Under the pieces are notes generated by a model. It did not search any database. It was not told where the DNA came from and was given only the letters and a program-made list of their open reading frames with translations. The position numbers and the translations under genes were made by a program. Shown one piece after another: positions 5,947 through 49,518 of a stretch of 64,000 bases of DNA; the stretch's first letter is position 1; every line of letters begins with the position of its first letter. Source of the stretch: Skermanella rosea (GTDB lineage: Bacteria; Pseudomonadota; Alphaproteobacteria; Azospirillales; Azospirillaceae); contig NZ_CP086111.1 of assembly GCF_016806835.2 (NCBI RefSeq), positions 2,367,001 to 2,431,000 on the forward strand. The letters run 5' to 3'.

Positions 5947-8900
5947 CTACTCCGCGGCCTGGCGGGCGCGTGCGACCAGCTGCGCCACGAGGGCCCGCAA
6001 GGCGCCGGGGCGGAGCGGTTTGCGGGCCAGCGCGATGCCCCGGGCGGCAACCTCTTCCTGGACCGCGTGACCGTGGTCGGCGGTGATCAGGGCGGCCGGA
6101 ACGGACGTTCCCAGGTGCTTCTCCAGTTCGCTCAGCGCCTCGAGCCCGGTCGAGCCGAAATCGAGGTGGTAATCGGTCAGGATGGCGTCGGGAATCCGCC
6201 CGTCCAGCGCCGCCAGCGCGCTCCCGGCGTCGGCGGCGGTCACCACGCGGCAGCCCCAGCCCTCCAGAAGCGTCGCCATGCCGCGCGACACGGCGGGGTC
6301 GTTGTCGATGCACAGGACGAGCGCCGCGCCGAAATCCCGGCTGGGTCGCCGGGAAGGCTGGCGCCGCAGGATCACGGCGGCGGCGGCGTAGGGCACTTCG
6401 ATCGCGAAGCAGCTTCCGCGGCCGCGCTCTGACCGGACCGTCACCTTTTGGCCCAGGATGCCGGCCAGGCGCTCGACGATGCTCAAGCCCAGCCCCAGCC
6501 CCTTGCCGCGTTCCGCCGGGACGTCGTCGAGCTGCCGGAACTCCACGAAGATATCCTTCAGCTTGTCGTCGGGAATGCCGACGCCGGTGTCCCATACCTC
6601 GATCCGCAATCCGCCGCGCTTCCGGCGGCAGCCGAGCAGGACCCGGCCGGACCCGGTATAGCGGATCGCGTTCGCCAGGAAATTCTGCAGGATACGGCGG
6701 AGAAGGGCTGGATCGCTGCTCACCGCCGCGGTCGAGGCGACCATGCGAAGACCCAGCCCGTGCCGCGCGGCGAGCACGGTGAACTCGTCGCGGAGCGGAC
6801 CCAGCACGTCGTCGATCCGGAAATCGACCGTCTTGGCGGTCACGACGCCGGAATCCAGTTTGGAGACGTCAAGCAATTCGCCGAGCAGTTCCTCCACCGA
6901 CCGCAGGGACGCGTCGACCTGGCCGATCAGCGGATCGGCGTCCCGCTCCGCCAGGGCCGAAAGGAACAGGCGTGCCGCGTGGAGAGGCTGCATCAGGTCG
7001 TGACCGGCCGCCGCCAGGAAGCGGGTCTTGCTCCGGTTGGCCCGTTCGGCCTCGGCCTTGGCCGCGGCAAGGTCGGAGGTGCGCTCCTCGATCCGCCGCT
7101 CCAGCCCCTCGTTCGCCTCCCGCAGCGCGGCGGCTGTCCGGTGGCGCTCGGTCACGTCGGTGCAGGTCATCACGAAGCCGCCGTTCGGCATCGGATCCGC
7201 CGCCACCTCCAGGACGGTGCCGTCGGGCTGCCGCCGCTCGAACCGGCCGGAGCGCACAAGCCCGCTTCCCATGATCTCGGACAGCGGCATGTCGGCCTTC
7301 AGCAGACCCTCGGGCAGTCCGTTCAGGGCGACGAACCGCCGGTTCCAGGTCATCACCCTGTCGTCGTGATCGACGACGCAGACACCCTGGTGGATGTTCT
7401 CCAGCGTCGCGCGCAGCAGGTCATGCTTGGCGAGGATCGCCCGGGAAGCCTCGTCCAGCATCGACCGCGCGTCGAGCGGGGACAGACGGCCGCCCTTCAG
7501 CATGCCGGCGACGACGATGCGGGCGGAGGCCGACCCCAGGGCTCCTGCCAGCAGGTGCTCGGTGAGCCGCACCGCTTCGGCATCGGCCTTGTCGAGCCAT
7601 CCGGTCCGGCCGGCGAAGACGGCGTCGGCCCTCTCGGTGCCGACATAGCGGGCCGCCAGGGCATGCAGATCGGCCACGCGGGTCATGCCCCGGACCGCGC
7701 CGGACCTGCCGTCGGACCGCATCGCGACGAACCGTTCCGCCTGCTGACGCTCGACGTCGCGCTGCGGAACCAGGAACGACAGGACGATGTAGCAGGCCAG
7801 GTTCAGTCCGAGGCTCCACAGGACCGAATGGGTCAGCGGATCGGGGCCGGGCATGCCCAGCAGGGCGCGGGGATTCAGCCAGCCCACGCCCAACGGTCCT
7901 TCCACCAGCAGGGCAGCGTCCATCCACCCGGCATCCGCCAAGGACGGCAGCAGGGCGGTATAGGTCCAGACCGAGAAACCCGCGGCGATGCCGCCGATGG
8001 CCCCGGCGCGGTTGCCGCGCCGCCAGACCAATCCGCCGAACAGGGCCGGTGCGAACTGGGCCACGGCGGCGAACGAGACGAGGCCGATGGTGGTCAGCGG
8101 GTATGCGGCGCCGATCAGCCGGTGGAAGCCATACGCGAGCGCCAGGATGCCGACCACGGCGGACCGCCGGATGAGCAGCAGCATGCGCGCCGGATCGTCG
8201 CGCCACGCGGCGGCGCCCGGCCGCAGGCGGAGCAGGGCGGGAACGACCACGTCGTTGCAGACCATGGTGCTGAGCGTCACCGCGGCGACGATGATCATTC
8301 CGGTCCCGGCCGACAGTCCGCCGACGAAGGCGATCAGGGCGACGGTCGGCCAGCCCTCGGCCATCGGGATCGACACCATGAAGGTGTCGGCGCTGACGGT
8401 GCCGTCCGGGAACAGCAGGACGCCGGCCAGCGCCACGGGCATCACGAACAGGTTGATCACGACGAGATAGAGCGGGAACAGCCTGGATGCGGCCCTTACG
8501 TCGTCGACATGGACGTTCTCCACCACCGCCACGTGGAACTGGCGGGGCAGGCACAGGATCGCGAAGGCGGAAAGCAGCGTCATGGTCCACCAGCTCCAGC
8601 GCCCCAGGTCCGGCACGAGCATCCCGCGCAGGTCGGGATGGGCCGAGACCCTCTCCCAAAGGGCACCGGGGCCGCCCATGATCGCGAAGGTGACCACCCC
8701 GCCGACGATCAGGAAAGCCGCCAGCTTCACCACCGATTCGAAGGCGACCGCCAGCACGAGGCCGCGATGGTGTTCGTTGGCGTGGATGTGCCGCACGCCG
8801 AACAGGATCGAGAACACCGCCATCGCCGCGGTCACCAGCATCACGGTGTCGGTCGAGATCAGGCGGTCGCCGGCGTCCGCCCCGGTCAGAGCCTCGAAGC

Positions 8901-9321
8901 TGATCGTGATGGCCTTCAGCTGGAGCGCCAGATAGGGCATCACGCCGACCACCGCCGTGACGGTGACCAGCGCCGCGACGGTCTGGCTCTTGCCGTAGCG
9001 CGCCGCCAGGAAGTCGGAGATCGAGACGACGTTCTCCGCCTTGGCGATGCGGACCATGCGCGCAAGCACCCGCGAGCCGAGGCCCAGCATCAGGATCGGG
9101 CCGAGATATATGGGCAGGAAATCGAAGCCGCTGACGCTGGCCCGGCCGACCGACCCGTAGAAGGTCCACGACGTGCAATAGACCGCCAGGCTCAGGGAGT
9201 AGAGGATCGGCGCCCTGGGAGCGCCCCGGCCGGCCGTGGACCAGCGGTCGCCCTGCCAAGCGACGGCGAACAACACGCAGAGGGTCCCGAGCGACACGAG
9301 CGCAACGATCCAGGTCTCCAT
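5947..9321 (-). CDS. SLC5-STAC-PAS hybrid sensor histidine kinase, CrbS/MxtR-like
   Basis: A very large kinase of 1124 residues. Residues 1-500 form a sodium:solute symporter-like domain with about 13 membrane segments. It is followed by a STAC-like linker, a PAS domain (near 645-750, ENIHQGVCVVDHDD), HisKA with the phospho-His in AAGHDLMQPLHAA near 773, an HATPase domain with GVGIPD and GKGLGLGLSI, and a C-terminal receiver with Asp in LTDYHLDFG near 1049. The receiver suggests a phosphorelay to the adjacent LuxR regulator. It probably senses acetate or a related flux at the inner membrane. The start is ATG at 9321 or GTG three bases earlier, both close to a G-rich site. Confidence 0.92.
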   Translation of the reverse strand: METWIVALVSLGTLCVLFAVAWQGDRWSTAGRGAPRAPILYSLSLAVYCTSWTFYGSVGRASVSGFDFLPIYLGPILMLGLGSRVLARMVRIAKAENVVSISDFLAARYGKSQTVAALVTVTAVVGVMPYLALQLKAITISFEALTGADAGDRLISTDTVMLVTAAMAVFSILFGVRHIHANEHHRGLVLAVAFESVVKLAAFLIVGGVVTFAIMGGPGALWERVSAHPDLRGMLVPDLGRWSWWTMTLLSAFAILCLPRQFHVAVVENVHVDDVRAASRLFPLYLVVINLFVMPVALAGVLLFPDGTVSADTFMVSIPMAEGWPTVALIAFVGGLSAGTGMIIVAAVTLSTMVCNDVVVPALLRLRPGAAAWRDDPARMLLLIRRSAVVGILALAYGFHRLIGAAYPLTTIGLVSFAAVAQFAPALFGGLVWRRGNRAGAIGGIAAGFSVWTYTALLPSLADAGWMDAALLVEGPLGVGWLNPRALLGMPGPDPLTHSVLWSLGLNLACYIVLSFLVPQRDVERQQAERFVAMRSDGRSGAVRGMTRVADLHALAARYVGTERADAVFAGRTGWLDKADAEAVRLTEHLLAGALGSASARIVVAGMLKGGRLSPLDARSMLDEASRAILAKHDLLRATLENIHQGVCVVDHDDRVMTWNRRFVALNGLPEGLLKADMPLSEIMGSGLVRSGRFERRQPDGTVLEVAADPMPNGGFVMTCTDVTERHRTAAALREANEGLERRIEERTSDLAAAKAEAERANRSKTRFLAAAGHDLMQPLHAARLFLSALAERDADPLIGQVDASLRSVEELLGELLDVSKLDSGVVTAKTVDFRIDDVLGPLRDEFTVLAARHGLGLRMVASTAAVSSDPALLRRILQNFLANAIRYTGSGRVLLGCRRKRGGLRIEVWDTGVGIPDDKLKDIFVEFRQLDDVPAERGKGLGLGLSIVERLAGILGQKVTVRSERGRGSCFAIEVPYAAAAVILRRQPSRRPSRDFGAALVLCIDNDPAVSRGMATLLEGWGCRVVTAADAGSALAALDGRIPDAILTDYHLDFGSTGLEALSELEKHLGTSVPAALITADHGHAVQEEVAARGIALARKPLRPGALRALVAQLVARARQAAE

Positions 9322-9324
9322 CAC

Positions 9325-9450
9325 CCCCTACCCGCACAATAATTTCGACCCCCTAGACCAAGGTCGGGGCTCCCAACGACCGGGCTCTAGTATTAAAGCT
9401 TGTTCACGATGAGGGCGGCCACGAAAAACAGCCTTCCGAGGAGACCCCAA
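9325..9450. promoter_or_regulatory. Divergent promoter region of the kinase and the acetate-permease operon
   Basis: The 126-bp spacer separates the two divergent units. It holds the palindrome GACC-AA-GGTC at 9356-9365 inside a C-rich/G-rich frame, and a TATTAA box at 9391-9396 that could serve as a -10 element for the rightward operon. Whether the CrbR-like regulator binds here is inference; I cannot match its operator. Confidence 0.35.
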
Positions 9451-9756
9451 ATGCGACAAGAATTGACGCACAAGATCAGAAATAATCCCAAATTCGCCGA
9501 GTTAACCCAAAAGCGCACAAAGTTCGGTTGGCAACTGTCCATCCTGATGCTGGCGCTCTACTACGGCTTCATCCTGATCGTTGCCTTTTTCCCCTCCCTG
9601 CTCGGCGTTCCGGTCTATGGCGTGATCACGCTGGGCATTCCCTTCGGCATCGTGATCATCCTCGCGGCGTTCCTGCTGACCGGCATCTACGTGCGCCGCG
9701 CCAACAGCGAATTCGACGAGCTGAACCGGCAGATCATCGAGGAGAGCAGGCAATGA
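9451..9756 (+). CDS. DUF485 (YjcH-like) small membrane protein
   Basis: A 101-residue protein with an N-terminal soluble part ([12 protein letters not shown] is the DUF485 signature) and two transmembrane segments around residues 27-50 and 60-84. DUF485 genes nearly always precede actP-type permeases, and the product is thought to be an accessory subunit. The start at 9451 has a GAGGAG site eight bases upstream. Its stop codon overlaps the actP start as ATGA, implying translational coupling. Confidence 0.92.
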
Positions 9757-11474
9757 GAACGACCTCGCGGGGAAGCATCGCGTCGGGTGCCCTGGCGACC
9801 CTTGGCGCCGCCTCCATCCTGACCGCTGCCGGCTCGGCCTTCGCCGCCGACGCGATCAGCGGCGCCGTCCAGCAGCAGGCGACCAACTGGACCGCCATCG
9901 TCATGTTCCTGATCTTCGTGGCGGGGACGCTGGGGATCACCTACTGGGCCGCGTCCAAGACCAAGTCGGCCAAGGACTTCTACGCCGCCGGCGGCGGCAT
10001 CACCGGTTTCCAGAACGGCCTGGCGATCGCCGGCGACTACATGTCGGCCGCCTCGTTCCTCGGCATCTCGGCGCTGGTCTACACCTCGGGCTTCGACGGG
10101 CTGATCTACTCGATCGGCTTCCTGGTCGGCTGGCCGATCATCCTGTTCCTGATCGCGGAGCAGTTGCGCAACCTCGGCAAATACACCTTCGCCGACGTCG
10201 CCTCCTACCGCCTGCGGCAGACCCCGATCCGCACCCTGGCGGCCTCCGGCTCGCTGGTCGTCGTGGCGCTCTACCTGATCGCCCAGATGGTCGGCGCCGG
10301 CAAGCTCATCCAGCTCCTGTTCGGCCTGCAATACGTGTATGCGGTGGTCCTGGTCGGTATCCTGATGATCCTGTACGTCACCTTCGGCGGCATGCTCGCC
10401 ACCACCTGGGTGCAGATCATCAAGGCGGTCCTGCTGCTATCCGGCGCGTCCTTCATGGCGATCATGGTGCTGGTCAACTACAACTTCAACGTCGGCGCCC
10501 TGTTCCAGGCGGCCGTGGACATGCATCCGAAGCATGTCGCGATCATGCAGCCGGGTACCCTGGTGAGCGATCCGGTCTCGGCGATCTCGCTGGGCATCGC
10601 GCTGATGTTCGGGACCGCCGGCCTGCCGCACATCCTGATGCGCTTCTTCACCGTCGCCGACGCCAAGGAGGCCCGCAAGTCGGTCTTCTACGCCACCGGC
10701 TTCATCGGCTACTTCTACATCCTGACCTTCATCATCGGCTTCGGCGCCATCGTCCTGCTGATGAACAACCCGGAATTCTTCCGGCCCGGCCCCGACGGCA
10801 CGGTGAACCCGATCACCAACATGATCGGCGGCACCAACATGGCGGCCATCCACCTGGCCCGCGCGGTCGGCGGCGACCTGTTCCTCGGCTTCATCTCGGC
10901 CGTCGCCTTCGCGACCATCCTGGCGGTGGTGTCGGGCCTGACGCTGGCCGGCGCGTCCGCCGTGTCGCACGACCTCTACGCCTCGGTGTTCCGCCGCGGC
11001 CGGGTCAACGAGCAGCAGGAGATCCGGGTTTCCAAGATCGCCACCGTCTGCCTCGGCATCCTGGCGATCATCCTGGGCATCGCGTTCGAGCAGCAGAACA
11101 TCGCCTTCATGGTGGGTCTCGCCTTCGCCATCGCCGCCTCGGCCAACTTCCCGATCATCTTCCTGTCGATGTTCTGGAGCAAGCTGACCACCCGCGGCGC
11201 CCTGATCGGCGGTTTCATGGGCCTGATCAGCGCCACCGTGATGGTGATCCTCGGGCCGACCGTGTGGGAAAGCGTGCTCGCCCACCCCAAGGGCAGCGCT
11301 CCCTTCCCCTACGACAACCCGGCGATCTTCTCGGTCACCCTGGCCTTCTTCGGATCCTGGCTGTTCTCGGTACTGGACAAGAGCCAGAACGCGGCCGACG
11401 AGGAGCGGGCCTTCGAAGCCCAGTACATCCGCTCCCAGACCGGCATCGGCGCGGAAGGAGCATCGGCCCACTGA
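9753..11474 (+). CDS. actP: Cation/acetate symporter
   Basis: A 573-residue sodium:solute symporter (SLC5). It has an N-terminal signal-like segment ending SAFAAD and about 13 membrane helices. Family signatures include [20 protein letters not shown], then [12 protein letters not shown] and [12 protein letters not shown]. ActP imports acetate and other short monocarboxylates with a cation. It is translationally coupled to the DUF485 gene and sits next to a CrbS/CrbR-like system, which in other bacteria controls actP and acs. A strong terminator follows. No acs gene is present in the window. Confidence 0.95.
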
Positions 11475-43691: not shown

Positions 43692-44468
43692 GTGACCGAC
43701 AGCATCGCCGTCCAAAACTCCGGCAGCCCCGAAACGGCAGCCGATTCGGCATCCACACTGCCTCTTTTCTACCGCAGGCCCGTTCCGCTCGACCGGAACC
43801 GCCACGGAGCGGCCCGCCTGCGCGCGCCGTCGGATCTCGGCTTCGCGGCCGAGGCCAACAGCTTGCCCGTGATGATCGAGGAGTTCGCCCTGTCGGCGCG
43901 CGATTACCCGATCCTGTTCACCGACGGCCCCGTCTGCATGCCGATCGTCCTGCTGGGGCTGCGCGATCGGCAGAACCTGTTCCTGCGCGAGCAGGACGGC
44001 CGGCCGGCGTGGCGGGCGGACACCTATGTGCCCGCCTATGTCAGGCGCTATCCGCTGGTGCTGATGGAAACCGCGAAGGCCGGCGAGTTCACCGTCTGCA
44101 TCGACGAGGCGGCGGAATTCCCGGACGGCCCGCTGGTTTTAGAGGCAGGCGGCGAGCTCTCGAAAGCGGGCCAGGAGGCCATGGAGTTCTGTCGGGCCTA
44201 CCAGAACCAGATCGCCGACACCCGGCAGTTCGCCGAGGCTCTCAAGAGCCATGACCTGCTGGACCGCTATTCGGCGGAAATCAAGCTGAACGGCGGGGAG
44301 GTGTTCAACCTGACCGGCTTCCTGGCGATCAACCCTGGGAAGTTCGACGCCCTGCCGGACGACGTGTACCTGGACTTCCGCCGGAAGGGCTGGATCGGTC
44401 TGATCCACCTCCAGATCGCGTCATCGCTCAACTGGCAGCGGTTGATGGCGCTGGCGTCGGGATACTGA
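43692..44468 (+). CDS. SapC-family protein
   Basis: A 258-residue protein of the SapC family: FYRRPVPLDRNRHGAARLR, then PVMIEEFALSARDYPILFT, and ending in GWIGLIHLQIASSLNWQRLM. Named after the Campylobacter S-layer locus, the family is common in Proteobacteria, usually without an S-layer, and the role is unclear. The start is GTG at 43692 with AGGAG eight bases upstream. It may be cotranscribed with the YchJ and 79-residue genes. A strong hairpin follows. Confidence 0.85.
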   Translation: MTDSIAVQNSGSPETAADSASTLPLFYRRPVPLDRNRHGAARLRAPSDLGFAAEANSLPVMIEEFALSARDYPILFTDGPVCMPIVLLGLRDRQNLFLREQDGRPAWRADTYVPAYVRRYPLVLMETAKAGEFTVCIDEAAEFPDGPLVLEAGGELSKAGQEAMEFCRAYQNQIADTRQFAEALKSHDLLDRYSAEIKLNGGEVFNLTGFLAINPGKFDALPDDVYLDFRRKGWIGLIHLQIASSLNWQRLMALASGY

Positions 44469-45292: not shown

Positions 45293-45597
45293 CGCGTCTT
45301 ATCTGGCTGTCACCGGGTTTGCCGTCATATATGTACAAACGCAGCGCACCGCACAACAATATTTTCCGCGGCAGGGCGCCGCAGATGGTCTCGGTATGAC
45401 ATGGCTGGTATGTAATTAGACCGCTGCAGGACCTCCCCGAGGGGAAGCGCACGTCCGTCAAGATAGGTTCCGCAGCCGGGGGCGCCACGCCCGACAACAG
45501 TCGTACGTCCAATGAACGCTGGCTTCGCGGCCCCGTCGGGTTGTTATGCAACGTCGTTCCGCTCAGGGTGAATTTGGAAGACAGCTGCGCGATCAAG
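45293..45597. other. 305-bp intergenic region between fpr and the CelD-type gene
   Basis: No gene is supported. An AT-richer patch (TCATATATGTAC near 45327) may hold the fpr promoter. An upstream TTG-started extension of the next gene into 45541 has no ribosome site. Confidence 0.35.
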
Positions 45598-46779
45598 ATG
45601 GATGGTGGTTCGTTGAGACAAGACCTGGCGGTGGAAATCGAATTCCTGCCGGCCGGCCGCATGCCCGGCCTGGAAACCGCCTGGAAGGATCTGGAGTCGC
45701 GGGCCGACGGCTCGTTCTTCCTGTCGTGGCACTGGATCGGTTGCTGGCTGGATCATCTGCCGGACTGGGCCAGGCCCCACGTGATCGTGGCGAGGCGCGC
45801 CGGGCAGGTGGTCGGCTTGGCGATCCTGTGCAGGCGCACGGTCTGGCGCTACGGCGTGGTCCGGACACCATCCTGGCTGCTCCACGAGACCGGCGACCGC
45901 GGAATAGACAACCTGACGATCGAGTACAACGGGATCCTCGCGGACCGGTCCTGCGCGGACGAGGTGACCTCGACCTGCCTGCTCTGGATGGCGCGCAATC
46001 TTCCCGGATGCGACGAGTTGGTACTGGCGGGCCTGGATCAGCGGACGGAGCGGTGCGCGCGCGCCCTGGCGGACCAGCTCGGATTCCGGCTGCAGGTGCG
46101 GCGCTCGGACTCGGCCAAGTGGGTCGATCTCGATGTCGTGCGCGGGCAGGGCGGGAACTATCGCGCCGGCCTCGGCAAGAGCACCCGCGCGGGCGTCAAC
46201 CGGGCGATCCGTCTGTACGAGGCGCGCGGCGGCGTCGATTTCCAGGTGGCCTCCGACGAGCGGCAGGCCTTGGCCTTCTTCGACGGGCTTGAAACCCTGC
46301 ACCGCCAAGTATGGGCGGCGCGTGGGAAGACCGATGCCTTCAGCAATCCCGTGTTCGGCCCGTTCCATCGCGAACTGATCCGGCGCGGCATCGGCTCCGG
46401 CGTCGTGCGGCTGTGCCGCGCCGCGGCCGGCGGGACGGATTTCGGCTATCTCTACAATTTCGTATGGCGCGGCACGGTGCTGAACTACCAGAGCGGGTTC
46501 GCCTACGAATCCGACAACAGGATGAAGCCCGGCCTTGTCAGCCATGTCCTCGCCATCGAGGATGCCCTGGCCCGCGGGGAGGCCGCGTACGACTTCATGG
46601 CCGGGTCGTCGGGCCACAAGGCCCATCTGTCCAATGAACAGTCACCCATGACCTGGGTTTCCATCGGTCCCGACCGGCTGGCCCGGAAGGTCGAGGCCGG
46701 TCTCGGCCGGGTCGACAGGTCGCTCAGGCTGCTGCGCCGCCGGCTGCTGAAGCCGAAGGCGGCGCCAAGCGGTTCATGA
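45598..46779 (+). CDS. GNAT-family protein of the CelD/BcsL type
   Basis: A 393-residue acyltransferase-like protein. The first half has SFFLSWHWIGCWLDHLPDWA, and the C-terminal GNAT_6 domain contains LGKSTRAGVNRAIRLYE and the core FGYLYNFVWRGTVLNYQSGFAY, then PGLVSHVLAIEDALARG. The family includes CelD of cellulose clusters and FemAB-like enzymes of exopolysaccharide loci. It probably adds an acyl or aminoacyl group to a polymer or peptide. The start is uncertain: ATG at 45598 or TTG at 45613. It is convergent with an ATP-grasp operon. Confidence 0.78.
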   Translation: MDGGSLRQDLAVEIEFLPAGRMPGLETAWKDLESRADGSFFLSWHWIGCWLDHLPDWARPHVIVARRAGQVVGLAILCRRTVWRYGVVRTPSWLLHETGDRGIDNLTIEYNGILADRSCADEVTSTCLLWMARNLPGCDELVLAGLDQRTERCARALADQLGFRLQVRRSDSAKWVDLDVVRGQGGNYRAGLGKSTRAGVNRAIRLYEARGGVDFQVASDERQALAFFDGLETLHRQVWAARGKTDAFSNPVFGPFHRELIRRGIGSGVVRLCRAAAGGTDFGYLYNFVWRGTVLNYQSGFAYESDNRMKPGLVSHVLAIEDALARGEAAYDFMAGSSGHKAHLSNEQSPMTWVSIGPDRLARKVEAGLGRVDRSLRLLRRRLLKPKAAPSGS

Positions 46780-46795
46780 CCGTTCCGCCGCTCCG

Positions 46796-47596
46796 CTACG
46801 CCCGGCCGCGGAGGGCGTGATAGATCCGGCGGATCGGTCCCCTCAGGGGCTCCGGCACCCGGGACAGACGCGCGGCCAAGCCGGCCTTCCGGGTCTTCGC
46901 CATCGCTGCCCGGTAATCGTAGGGAACGCGGCGCAGCTGGACGGTCCGGGCCGCGGGATCGATCAGCATGAAGCTGGCGCGACGGTCCGAAGTCCGAGGC
47001 TGGCCGACGGTCCCGGGGTTGACGAGGTAGTACGAACCGTCCCGGATGGCCACGCCGTCGCCCTGGTGGGCGGTCATTGCACCGTCCCGCATCTCGAAGA
47101 TCCCGATACGGTGGGTGTGTCCGAAGGCGCAGATCCGGGCGCCTGTCGGGTGGCTCTCGAGCGCCTCGAAGCTCAGCGCGCGCTTGTCGTCGGTGTCCAG
47201 CCGGACCAGTTCGCAGCCGGTTTCGGGATGAAGCGCACCATGGACGGCCACGATGCCGGGGCCGTCCTCCCCGGCCAGATCGAGCTTGAGGGGGAGGCGC
47301 CGCAGCCAGTCCATGTCGCCGGGGCCGAGTTGCGTCCTGGTCCACTCGACCGCCCGGGCGGCGAGCGGGTTGAAGCCTTCGGTCGTGATCTGGCCGGTCA
47401 CGGCACGGTCGTGGTTCCCGGCGACGCAGACGGCGCCGGCCTCTCTCAACCGGCGGATGCACCCGGCAGGATCGGCATTGTAGCCGACGATGTCGCCGAG
47501 GCAGAGGATACGCCCGACCCTCTCGTCCCGGATCGCATCGAGCGTCGCGTCGAGGGCTTCCAGGTTGGCATGGATGTCCGAGATGACGGCGATCAT
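46796..47596 (-). CDS. Calcineurin-like metallophosphoesterase
   Basis: A 266-residue phosphoesterase with all five metal motifs: ISDIHAN, CLGDIVGYNADP, AGNHDRAV, AVHGALH and GHTHRIG. It belongs to the YfcE/MJ0936-like branch of small phosphodiesterases. It overlaps the ATP-grasp gene by four bases (ATGA), so the two are coupled. The substrate is unknown; a phosphorylated intermediate of the ATP-grasp reaction is one possibility. Confidence 0.9.
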   Translation of the reverse strand: MIAVISDIHANLEALDATLDAIRDERVGRILCLGDIVGYNADPAGCIRRLREAGAVCVAGNHDRAVTGQITTEGFNPLAARAVEWTRTQLGPGDMDWLRRLPLKLDLAGEDGPGIVAVHGALHPETGCELVRLDTDDKRALSFEALESHPTGARICAFGHTHRIGIFEMRDGAMTAHQGDGVAIRDGSYYLVNPGTVGQPRTSDRRASFMLIDPAARTVQLRRVPYDYRAAMAKTRKAGLAARLSRVPEPLRGPIRRIYHALRGRA

Positions 47597-48756
47597 CGCC
47601 AGCGCGCCGGCAGTACGCGCGACACATGTTTTCGCAGGAACGGCATGGGATCCCTCAGGGTGATCGACTTGGCCTCGCACCGGATCATCCAGGCCCACCA
47701 CTCCGCCATGGGCACTCCGCTCTCCCGGGCCGCCAGCTTGTCCCGGGTGATGTTGCACCAGGAGGCGCCTGCCCGGGCGCGGGGCACCGGGGGACGGCGC
47801 AGGCCCAGCAGGTCGCCGTAGACCAGGGCAGGGAGGTTGACTCCGGCGACCGCCCCGACATAGTGCCACAGGTTGTAACGGGGATTGACCTCCAGCAGGT
47901 GCAGCGTGCCGTCCGGCGCGCGCTTGAAGTCGAACTTGGCGACCCCGGTCAGGGCCAGCTTGTCGACCATCTCCCGTCCCAGCGTCCTGACGTCGGCCTC
48001 GTCGGTTATGGTCAGGGCCGTGCTGTGCCCGAGGGCTTCGGGATAGGTCCTGATCTTGCGCCCGCTATACTCGCCGACCACGCTGCCAGCGCCGTCGACA
48101 TAGCAGTGGTAGCTCTCGATCCGGGTTTCCGGACCGGGGATCATCTCCTGGGCGAGCAGGTCCATTCCGCCGGCGATCAGGTCGGGCCACAGCGCCTGGA
48201 GTTCACCCGGGCTCTCGATCCGAAGCGCCTTGCCGGCGCCCCCGATGGCGCCCCATGCGATGTAGCGGGTCAGCGGCTTGACGACGATCGGGAAGCGCAG
48301 GTCGATGTCCGACGGGCCCGTGTCCGGCGCACCGACGGAAAAGTCGATCCGCCGGGTGCGCGGAACCGGCAGCCGCAGGCGTTCCGCAAGGATCTGGAAC
48401 CGGGCCTTGTCCACCAAGTCCTCGACCAGTTCCGCCTCCGGCACGACGAACCTGAAGGACTTGGCCAGCCTGTCGCGGTGCCTCGACACCATCAGCAGCT
48501 GGGCATCCTGCTGATAGTAGAGGACGGGCGGTTCGGGCTGGCGGGACGCGAAATCGACCAGGAGGTCGATCAGTTCGGCGTGGCGGTTCTCGAAATCGTC
48601 CCAGAAGACGGCCTGCCGCGTGTAGCGCGAATGGAGGGCGGGGTCGCCGGGCTGCGTTACCAGGGCGCAGCCGATACCGCCCATCCCCAGGGCGCGCACC
48701 ATGTTCATGTCGCCCATGACGCAGGCCAGTGCCCGCTTGTCCTGTTTCTCACTCAT
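47593..48756 (-). CDS. ATP-grasp carboxylate-amine ligase family protein
   Basis: A 387-residue protein. The N-terminal part (GIGCALVTQPGDPALHSRYT) is a pre-ATP-grasp domain. The ATP-grasp core spans about 115-310, with FPIVVKPLTRYIAWGAIGGA, then DLLAQEMIPGPETRIESYHC and the Mg site FDFKRAPDGTLHLLEVNPRYN. Such enzymes activate a carboxylate with ATP and couple it to an amine or thiol. It is middle gene of a CPBP / ATP-grasp / phosphoesterase operon, next to a CelD-type GNAT gene, a context resembling peptide- or glycan-tailoring loci. Confidence 0.88.
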   Translation of the reverse strand: MSEKQDKRALACVMGDMNMVRALGMGGIGCALVTQPGDPALHSRYTRQAVFWDDFENRHAELIDLLVDFASRQPEPPVLYYQQDAQLLMVSRHRDRLAKSFRFVVPEAELVEDLVDKARFQILAERLRLPVPRTRRIDFSVGAPDTGPSDIDLRFPIVVKPLTRYIAWGAIGGAGKALRIESPGELQALWPDLIAGGMDLLAQEMIPGPETRIESYHCYVDGAGSVVGEYSGRKIRTYPEALGHSTALTITDEADVRTLGREMVDKLALTGVAKFDFKRAPDGTLHLLEVNPRYNLWHYVGAVAGVNLPALVYGDLLGLRRPPVPRARAGASWCNITRDKLAARESGVPMAEWWAWMIRCEAKSITLRDPMPFLRKHVSRVLPARWR

Positions 48757-48786
48757 GCAACTTCACTCATTCCGGAAAGGGGTCCC

Positions 48787-49518
48787 TCATGCATTGGCCG
48801 CGACGGCGAAGACGAGCAGGGTCGAGATCGCGTTGAAGCATCCGTGCAGCAGGATGCAGGGAAGCAGCGAACCGCTCCGCTCGTAGACCCAGGCTAGCAC
48901 CAGACCGACCAGGAACGTTCCGGGCAATAGGATCAGGCTTCCGTGCAAGATGGCGAACACCATGGCGCTCGCCAGGGCCGACAGGAGCGGGCCGGCATGG
49001 CGGCGGAGCCAGCCATAGAGTACCGCCCTCAGGGCAAGCTCCTCGGCGACGGGAGCGAGCAGCGAGGTCGCCAGCAGGATGCCGACCATGGCGGTCCAGT
49101 CGCCCGGGTCGGGCATGATCAGGGCGATCTGCGGATTGTCGAACGGCTCGCCCAGGGCCAGCGAAATGAGGACGTTGGTCAGGATGACCGCGACCTGGAC
49201 CAGCAGGGCCAGGGGAACGACCCTGCGGTACCACCGTCCGCCGGGGGAGACGAACCCCAGTGCGTGCCAGGGCGTGCGCCGCCAGACGACCGCGATCAGC
49301 CAGATGATCGCCACCAGGGCCACGTTCTGGCCGATCAGGAACGATATCACCAAGCCGCTGGTGATCTCCCGGGGGCTCAGGAACAGCCGGAGGGCCAGCA
49401 GTGCGCCGATCGCCAGCGCGACGATGATTACCAGGTCCGCCAGCCGCAAGGGCAGGTCGGCCCAGGGGTGGCGGGCCGGCGGATCGAAGCCGGGTTCCGT
49501 CGGTCCGGTCATGGTCAT
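48787..49518 (-). CDS. CPBP-family intramembrane metalloprotease
   Basis: A 243-residue protein with about seven membrane helices. The Abi/CPBP motifs are visible: EELALRAVLYGWL, then FAILHG and LLHGCFNAIS. Members process prenylated or peptide substrates in the membrane, and several act in bacteriocin immunity. It is the first gene of the operon with the ATP-grasp and phosphoesterase genes (30-bp gap). The ATG at 49518 or 49512 may be used. Confidence 0.88.
   Translation of the reverse strand: MTMTGPTEPGFDPPARHPWADLPLRLADLVIIVALAIGALLALRLFLSPREITSGLVISFLIGQNVALVAIIWLIAVVWRRTPWHALGFVSPGGRWYRRVVPLALLVQVAVILTNVLISLALGEPFDNPQIALIMPDPGDWTAMVGILLATSLLAPVAEELALRAVLYGWLRRHAGPLLSALASAMVFAILHGSLILLPGTFLVGLVLAWVYERSGSLLPCILLHGCFNAISTLLVFAVAANA

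Follow-up and report, generated by a model that had tools for sequence, protein, structure and literature searches.

ATP-grasp enzymes form amide bonds by way of an acyl phosphate. Amidoligase systems in which ATP-grasp and GNAT domains stand side by side were reportedly described by Iyer et al. 2009. According to the available excerpt of its report, SfmE (SO_3265) of Shewanella oneidensis is an ATP-grasp protein which acts in flagellin modification and belongs to the operon sfmABCDE (PMC3765264). The available excerpt of a second report places an ATP-grasp amino-acyl ligase, in the surroundings of CA_C2195, beside glycosyltransferases and N-acetyltransferases in surface-carbohydrate clusters (PMC4000134). 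We analyzed here a group of genes from Skermanella rosea in which a predicted ATP-grasp ligase (AG) adjoins a putative calcineurin-like metallophosphoesterase (MPE) and a putative GNAT-fold acyltransferase (GNAT). No description of this trio was noticed in the open literature searched, which lacks most subscription journals.

The four genes of the locus and their families

The window, that is, the whole stretch of 64,000 nucleotides that was analyzed, comes from a genome of 7.76 Mb in 7 contigs (G000), whose nearest named relative is S. aerolata. In it the GNAT gene (45598..46779, plus strand, 393 aa, with an alternative in-frame GTG start at 45571) converges on the MPE gene (46796..47596, minus strand, 266 aa), their stops lying 16 bp apart, MPE overlaps the AG gene (47593..48756, minus strand, 387 aa) by 4 bp (ATGA), and a gap of 30 bp separates AG from the gene of a putative CPBP/Rce1-like intramembrane protease (CPBP; 48787..49518, minus strand, 243 aa). 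An earlier note on this DNA had placed the four genes in the same way, and its coordinates, strands and spacings were confirmed from the open reading frames. A SapC-family gene (window 43692-44468, plus strand; PF07277, 180 bits) lies two genes from the locus, and a scan for promoters and terminators at the locus gave nothing informative.

All four proteins passed Pfam cut-offs in the profile search. AG barely did so, with 30.7 bits against PF15632 (ATPgrasp_Ter; cut-off 29.1, passed by 1.6 bits), and its scores with PRK12767 models were weak and fell far short of the cut-offs (33.9 bits against 316, or lower). Its residues K160, E204, D276, E289, N291 and R293 were, however, invariant in 27/27 aligned relatives, and we take them to be catalytic or nucleotide-Mg ligand residues. 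Profile matches to PDB entries 2pn1 (7e-7) and 8evy (1e-6) aligned through the same core, so that the profile match, the conserved residues and these alignments together mark AG as a predicted member of the ATP-grasp superfamily. No Ter stress-response protein was found among the scanned neighbours, which cover part of the neighbourhood. At another locus (L100, 290-2425, minus strand) a protein of 711 aa carries two ATP-grasp regions, PF15632 and PF02655, one of which is related to AG.

MPE scored 65.9 bits against PF12850 (cut-off 27). Its residues D7, H9, D35, N61, H62, H119, H160 and H162 were invariant in 21/21 relatives and the motifs DxH, GD, GNHD, VHG and GHTH were all conserved, and by profile and motifs it is a predicted calcineurin-like phosphoesterase. 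It is a clear homologue, over 241 residues (E 1.2e-45), of PDB 3rqz, a metallophosphoesterase of Sphaerobacter. CPBP, with 72.5 bits against PF02517 (cut-off 22.4) and six TM-like stretches, is a predicted rhomboid-like (Rce1-like) glutamic protease embedded in the membrane.

GNAT matched PF13480 with 91.3 bits (cut-off 22) over residues 194-341, which assigns it as a predicted member of this CelD-like family; a search against PDB sequences gave zero matches at E 1 or better. PF13480 is part of a wide GNAT-fold group which includes aminoacyl and acyl transferases. AG, MPE and GNAT carry no TM-like stretch and look cytoplasmic. Both the GNAT-fold membership and the cytoplasmic appearance of all three proteins would suit a trio that modifies a lipid or a protein, with AG, for example, coupling an amino acid and GNAT attaching it to the headgroup of a lipid or to a side chain of a protein. 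However, in the contexts seen the trio has no recurring neighbour for lipid synthesis or for a target protein, and we regard such a role as unlikely.

Other memberships were considered and rejected. None of the four proteins matched a PADLOC model of anti-phage defence at E 0.01. As to an exosortase/PEP-CTERM system, GNAT had no match in NCBIfam, in which a FemAB-type PEP-CTERM protein was sought, and CPBP reached 26.6 of 81.05 bits with TIGR03008, the model of a CAAX-protease-related protein; a neighbour of one distant AG relative (L122) scored 558 of 817 bits with TIGR03108, below the cut-off. Structure models of AG and GNAT made from two-sequence alignments were discarded, their pLDDT being 38.4 for AG and an unusable 41.8 for GNAT.

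Distribution and gene order in the family and beyond

The family sample comprised 82 genomes of the Skermanella/Azospirillum family. AG was detected at E 0.001 or better in 44/82 genomes, strongly (E 1e-139 or better) in 41 of these and only weakly in three (G024, G048 and G054). MPE was likewise strong (E 1e-118 or better) in 41/82 genomes, with a further match at 2e-44 in G053, and the sets of 41 genomes with AG and with strong MPE were identical; these 82 genomes do not amount to independent trials, because the presence sets partly follow genus lines. Strong GNAT (E 1e-171 or better) occurred in 39 genomes, of which 38 are among the 41 with AG and one (G081) is among the 41 without it. Three AG genomes lacked strong GNAT (G001, G033 and G055), and weaker GNAT homologues were found in G001, G012, G054 and G067.

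Four of the 41 genomes (G011, G028, G029 and G030) have two AG loci apiece, which gives 45 loci in all. At 40/45 loci (39/44 fetched loci and the window) MPE is the next gene after AG on the same strand, with a gap of -4 to 29 bp. At the other five, a DDE transposase gene (7973-9013, plus strand) separates the two genes in one Azospirillum genome (L067), MPE lies 3.9 kb upstream of AG at L044 and L052, and no MPE is found nearby at L037 and L073; in G033 it is on a different contig. GNAT is within the group at 38/45 AG loci, in three gene orders. The order GNAT-AG-MPE was found at 33 loci and AG-MPE-GNAT on one strand at a single locus (L056), and in the four Skermanella loci (the window, L033, L034 and L035) AG-MPE converges on GNAT; the S. 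aerolata contig is G078:C269, where L032 and L035 are the same locus and were counted once. When loci sharing at least two gene families within about 20 kb were joined, the 38 trio loci fell into six groups by their shared flanking genes, one of which, through L036, includes glycan-cluster loci.

The proteins share 83-95% identity with those of the two closest congeners and 51-76% with those of other aligned relatives, and this conservation, together with MPE following AG directly at the loci counted above, argues for a grouping beyond chance. Correlations between the pairwise identities of the three proteins (0.92-0.96) were excluded as evidence, since vertical descent fits them as well as co-evolution does. 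Chance neighbours without a common function might differ in orientation, as GNAT does in Skermanella, and GNAT is indeed missing at 7/45 loci, but the presence of AG and MPE is identical over the 82 genomes and adjacency is kept in six flanking groups, which makes chance scarcely credible. We conclude that AG, MPE and GNAT form a genuine lineage-specific trio of enzymes, the core of which is AG and MPE.

CPBP, on the other hand, was found by protein search in 5/82 family genomes, all of them Skermanella. Its spacing from AG is tight (three Skermanella genomes have 30 bp, a fourth has 50 bp), which suggests co-transcription in this genus and would agree with a four-gene peptide or amidoligase pathway whose product is matured by CPBP, or against which CPBP protects. 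Such a pathway is very improbable, for CPBP is confined to one genus, AG-MPE-GNAT occurs without it in other genera, and it falls below the cut-offs of NCBIfam equivalogs such as MrtJ. Furthermore, CPBP is kept in G081, a Skermanella that lacks AG and MPE. At this site (L092, G081:C2:409000-428500, region 9139-10970) GNAT and CPBP are present and neither AG nor MPE could be traced between them, GNAT with 69% identity over residues 10-361 (its last ~30 residues unaligned) and CPBP with 72%. As AG and MPE are absent together, this strain offers a natural comparison. CPBP is probably a local Skermanella neighbour and not a functional part of the module.

The earlier note had taken the four genes together as a candidate biosynthetic or modification locus and had pointed out that CPBP proteases mature such products or protect against them. 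A conserved unit of all four genes was not borne out, and CPBP as a working part is not supported, as CPBP was found only in Skermanella. The note had also held that independent occurrence of the genes in relatives would refute its reading; such independence was seen for CPBP and in part for GNAT, which seven AG loci lack and which G081 has although it carries neither AG nor MPE, whereas AG and MPE did not show it. The synteny check it had suggested, carried out over the 82 family genomes, accordingly retained AG, MPE and GNAT as a conserved set and removed CPBP from it. The linkage it had drawn between the ATP-grasp, GNAT and phosphoesterase genes held, GNAT being present at 38 and MPE adjoining at 40 of the 45 AG loci.

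Outside the family, a search of the class (385 genomes, the top four candidates per genome being scored) gave only two partial AG matches beyond the genus of the window, and a search of the phylum (398 genomes) gave 13 matches beyond the genome of the window, of which 12 were examined and one (G615) was left out. One of the 12, G761 from another family of the same class (L116, 8071-10256, minus strand), is a near relative and has AG (62%) and MPE (58%) with the same 4-bp overlap and no GNAT, and the neighbours of this pair are DegT, GDP-mannose dehydratase, PGA_cap and asparagine-synthase genes; the presence of the pair in a sugar cluster is probably due to its horizontal transfer. Two distant AG relatives (L122 and L124) each have a weak GNAT-profile match nearby; the first (3e-16) is two genes away, and the second (4e-13), truncated where the stretch ends, is at a distance of about 9 kb.

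Polysaccharide context of the trio and its relatives

The glycan context was examined with nine marker types (GT4, GT2, Wzx, Wzy/ligase, DegT, asparagine-synthase-like, WbqC, Wzz and PGA_cap), drawn from proteins with Pfam or NCBIfam assignments and searched in stretches of about 20 kb with self-hits dropped. Controls were 20 stretches at round coordinates in 11 of the genomes used, and these stretches played no role in the choice of markers; the short contigs of the two partial matches from the class search (L099 and L100) were left out of the count. At least two marker types were found at 4/7 AG loci without GNAT, 5/12 loci of other AG relatives, 2/7 loci of GNAT homologues outside the trio and 0/20 controls, and at least one type at 5/7, 6/12, 5/7 and 1/20, respectively, a test which favours the loci of AG and GNAT relatives since the markers were taken from such loci. 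After removal of self-hits no marker remained at 6/12 loci of other AG relatives and 2/7 GNAT-less AG loci. By Pfam, L044 also has a glycosyltransferase, Wzy_C and WbqC, and a flippase-type protein and a GT4 protein occur at L119; these were not counted because the loci's own proteins had served as queries. At the trio loci, including the window, not even one marker type was found (0/38). The trio's own loci are thus not surface-polysaccharide clusters by this test, and their relatives alone show such a setting.

Since no trio locus carries a marker, the link of the trio to glycans rests on its relatives. The earlier note had suggested an amidoligase-type locus that either builds small peptides or tailors glycans. 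Its glycan-tailoring half gains independent support, as relatives of AG and, separately, of GNAT lie in polysaccharide clusters. Its small-peptide half found no positive evidence, the internal gaps (30, -4 and 16 bp) being too small for a precursor gene; with gaps considered within the cluster only, none was large enough for a graspetide/RiPP precursor.

In the AG tree (57 rows), L037, L044, L052, L060, L073, L074 and L116 grouped together with support of 81/89, below the star level; this glycan-cluster grouping adjoins the Azospirillum trio copies, and Skermanella and L075 fall outside. On this tree the glycan-cluster label has to change three times or more, which implies either repeated interchange of glycan and stand-alone contexts or unresolved deep branches. 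At a support of 81/89 only, the glycan-cluster copies of AG do not appear cleanly apart from the trio copies.

In five AG clusters (L044, L052, L060, L073 and L037) a WbqC-family gene is paired with a gene of 253-285 aa (c50/c51), for which those scanned gave no Pfam or NCBIfam match. WbqC, which lies beside AG in several clusters, was also followed up in the literature and led nowhere.

ATP-grasp ligases also join amino acids in metabolites. The absence of polysaccharide markers from all 38 trio loci could accordingly mean that the trio makes a free small molecule, such as an N-acylated dipeptide-like or phosphate-protected metabolite, the glycan-cluster relatives having been recruited separately, and a phosphatase removing a protecting phosphate would suit such a dedicated pathway. 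However, there is no gene for a transporter, for resistance or for an additional biosynthetic step that all trio contexts share, and AG relatives and GNAT relatives lie separately in glycan clusters; we consider a free metabolite possible but doubtful.

Proposed function and comparison with described systems

We propose, with about an even chance of being right, that AG, MPE and GNAT form a portable cytoplasmic module for the synthesis of an amide-linked substituent, whose most likely destination is a surface glycan. AG would use ATP to turn a carboxylate into an acyl phosphate and would join it to an amine, the partner being an amino acid, an amino sugar or a uronic acid. MPE would remove a phosphate from the intermediate or the product, and GNAT would acylate the product or pass the group to a sugar. 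Action of the trio on the glycan itself, its substrates, the order of the steps and the acyl donor are given here as we infer them. In Skermanella the module would stand alone on the chromosome, merely adjoined by the genus-specific CPBP. More tentatively, and to be taken as a speculation, the trio may be an undescribed, self-contained three-enzyme pathway to a new amide substituent through a phosphorylated intermediate, with AG ligating, MPE dephosphorylating and GNAT transferring the acyl group, the substituent being supplied in trans to glycans assembled elsewhere, the copies in glycan clusters being specialised versions of it.

Azospirillum and Skermanella inhabit plant roots and dry soils, habitats in which surface polysaccharides are important, and a strictly co-inherited AG-MPE pair with its GNAT partner, in 41/82 genomes, would be a compact target for finding a surface modification. 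The trio is also present in Azospirillum brasilense, which is available as a laboratory strain. The glycan-cluster versions and the G081 site provide ready comparisons.

Among described proteins, PDB 3rqz is homologous to MPE, and an association with an ATP-grasp gene was seen here for MPE. AG resembles PRK12767/carbamoyl-phosphate-synthase-like proteins (PDB 2pn1) and PF15632 in its ATP-grasp core and ligand residues, its full C-terminal core aligning to 2pn1; it differs from them in a conserved C-terminal tail of its own and in PRK12767 scores far below the cut-offs. The amidoligase systems of Iyer et al. 2009 reportedly have the same kinds of domain, ATP-grasp and GNAT, side by side. SfmE is, like AG, an ATP-grasp protein, and its role is in surface-glycan modification, but the likeness to AG is one of family, and its partners in the available excerpt are PseI-like, reductase and methyltransferase proteins, with no GNAT-MPE pair reported there (PMC3765264). 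The CA_C2195 genes, as the excerpt of their report presents them, form a large sugar cluster, whereas the trio described here stands alone (PMC4000134). The trio of AG, MPE and GNAT would be a lineage-specific form of the ATP-grasp tailoring already known.
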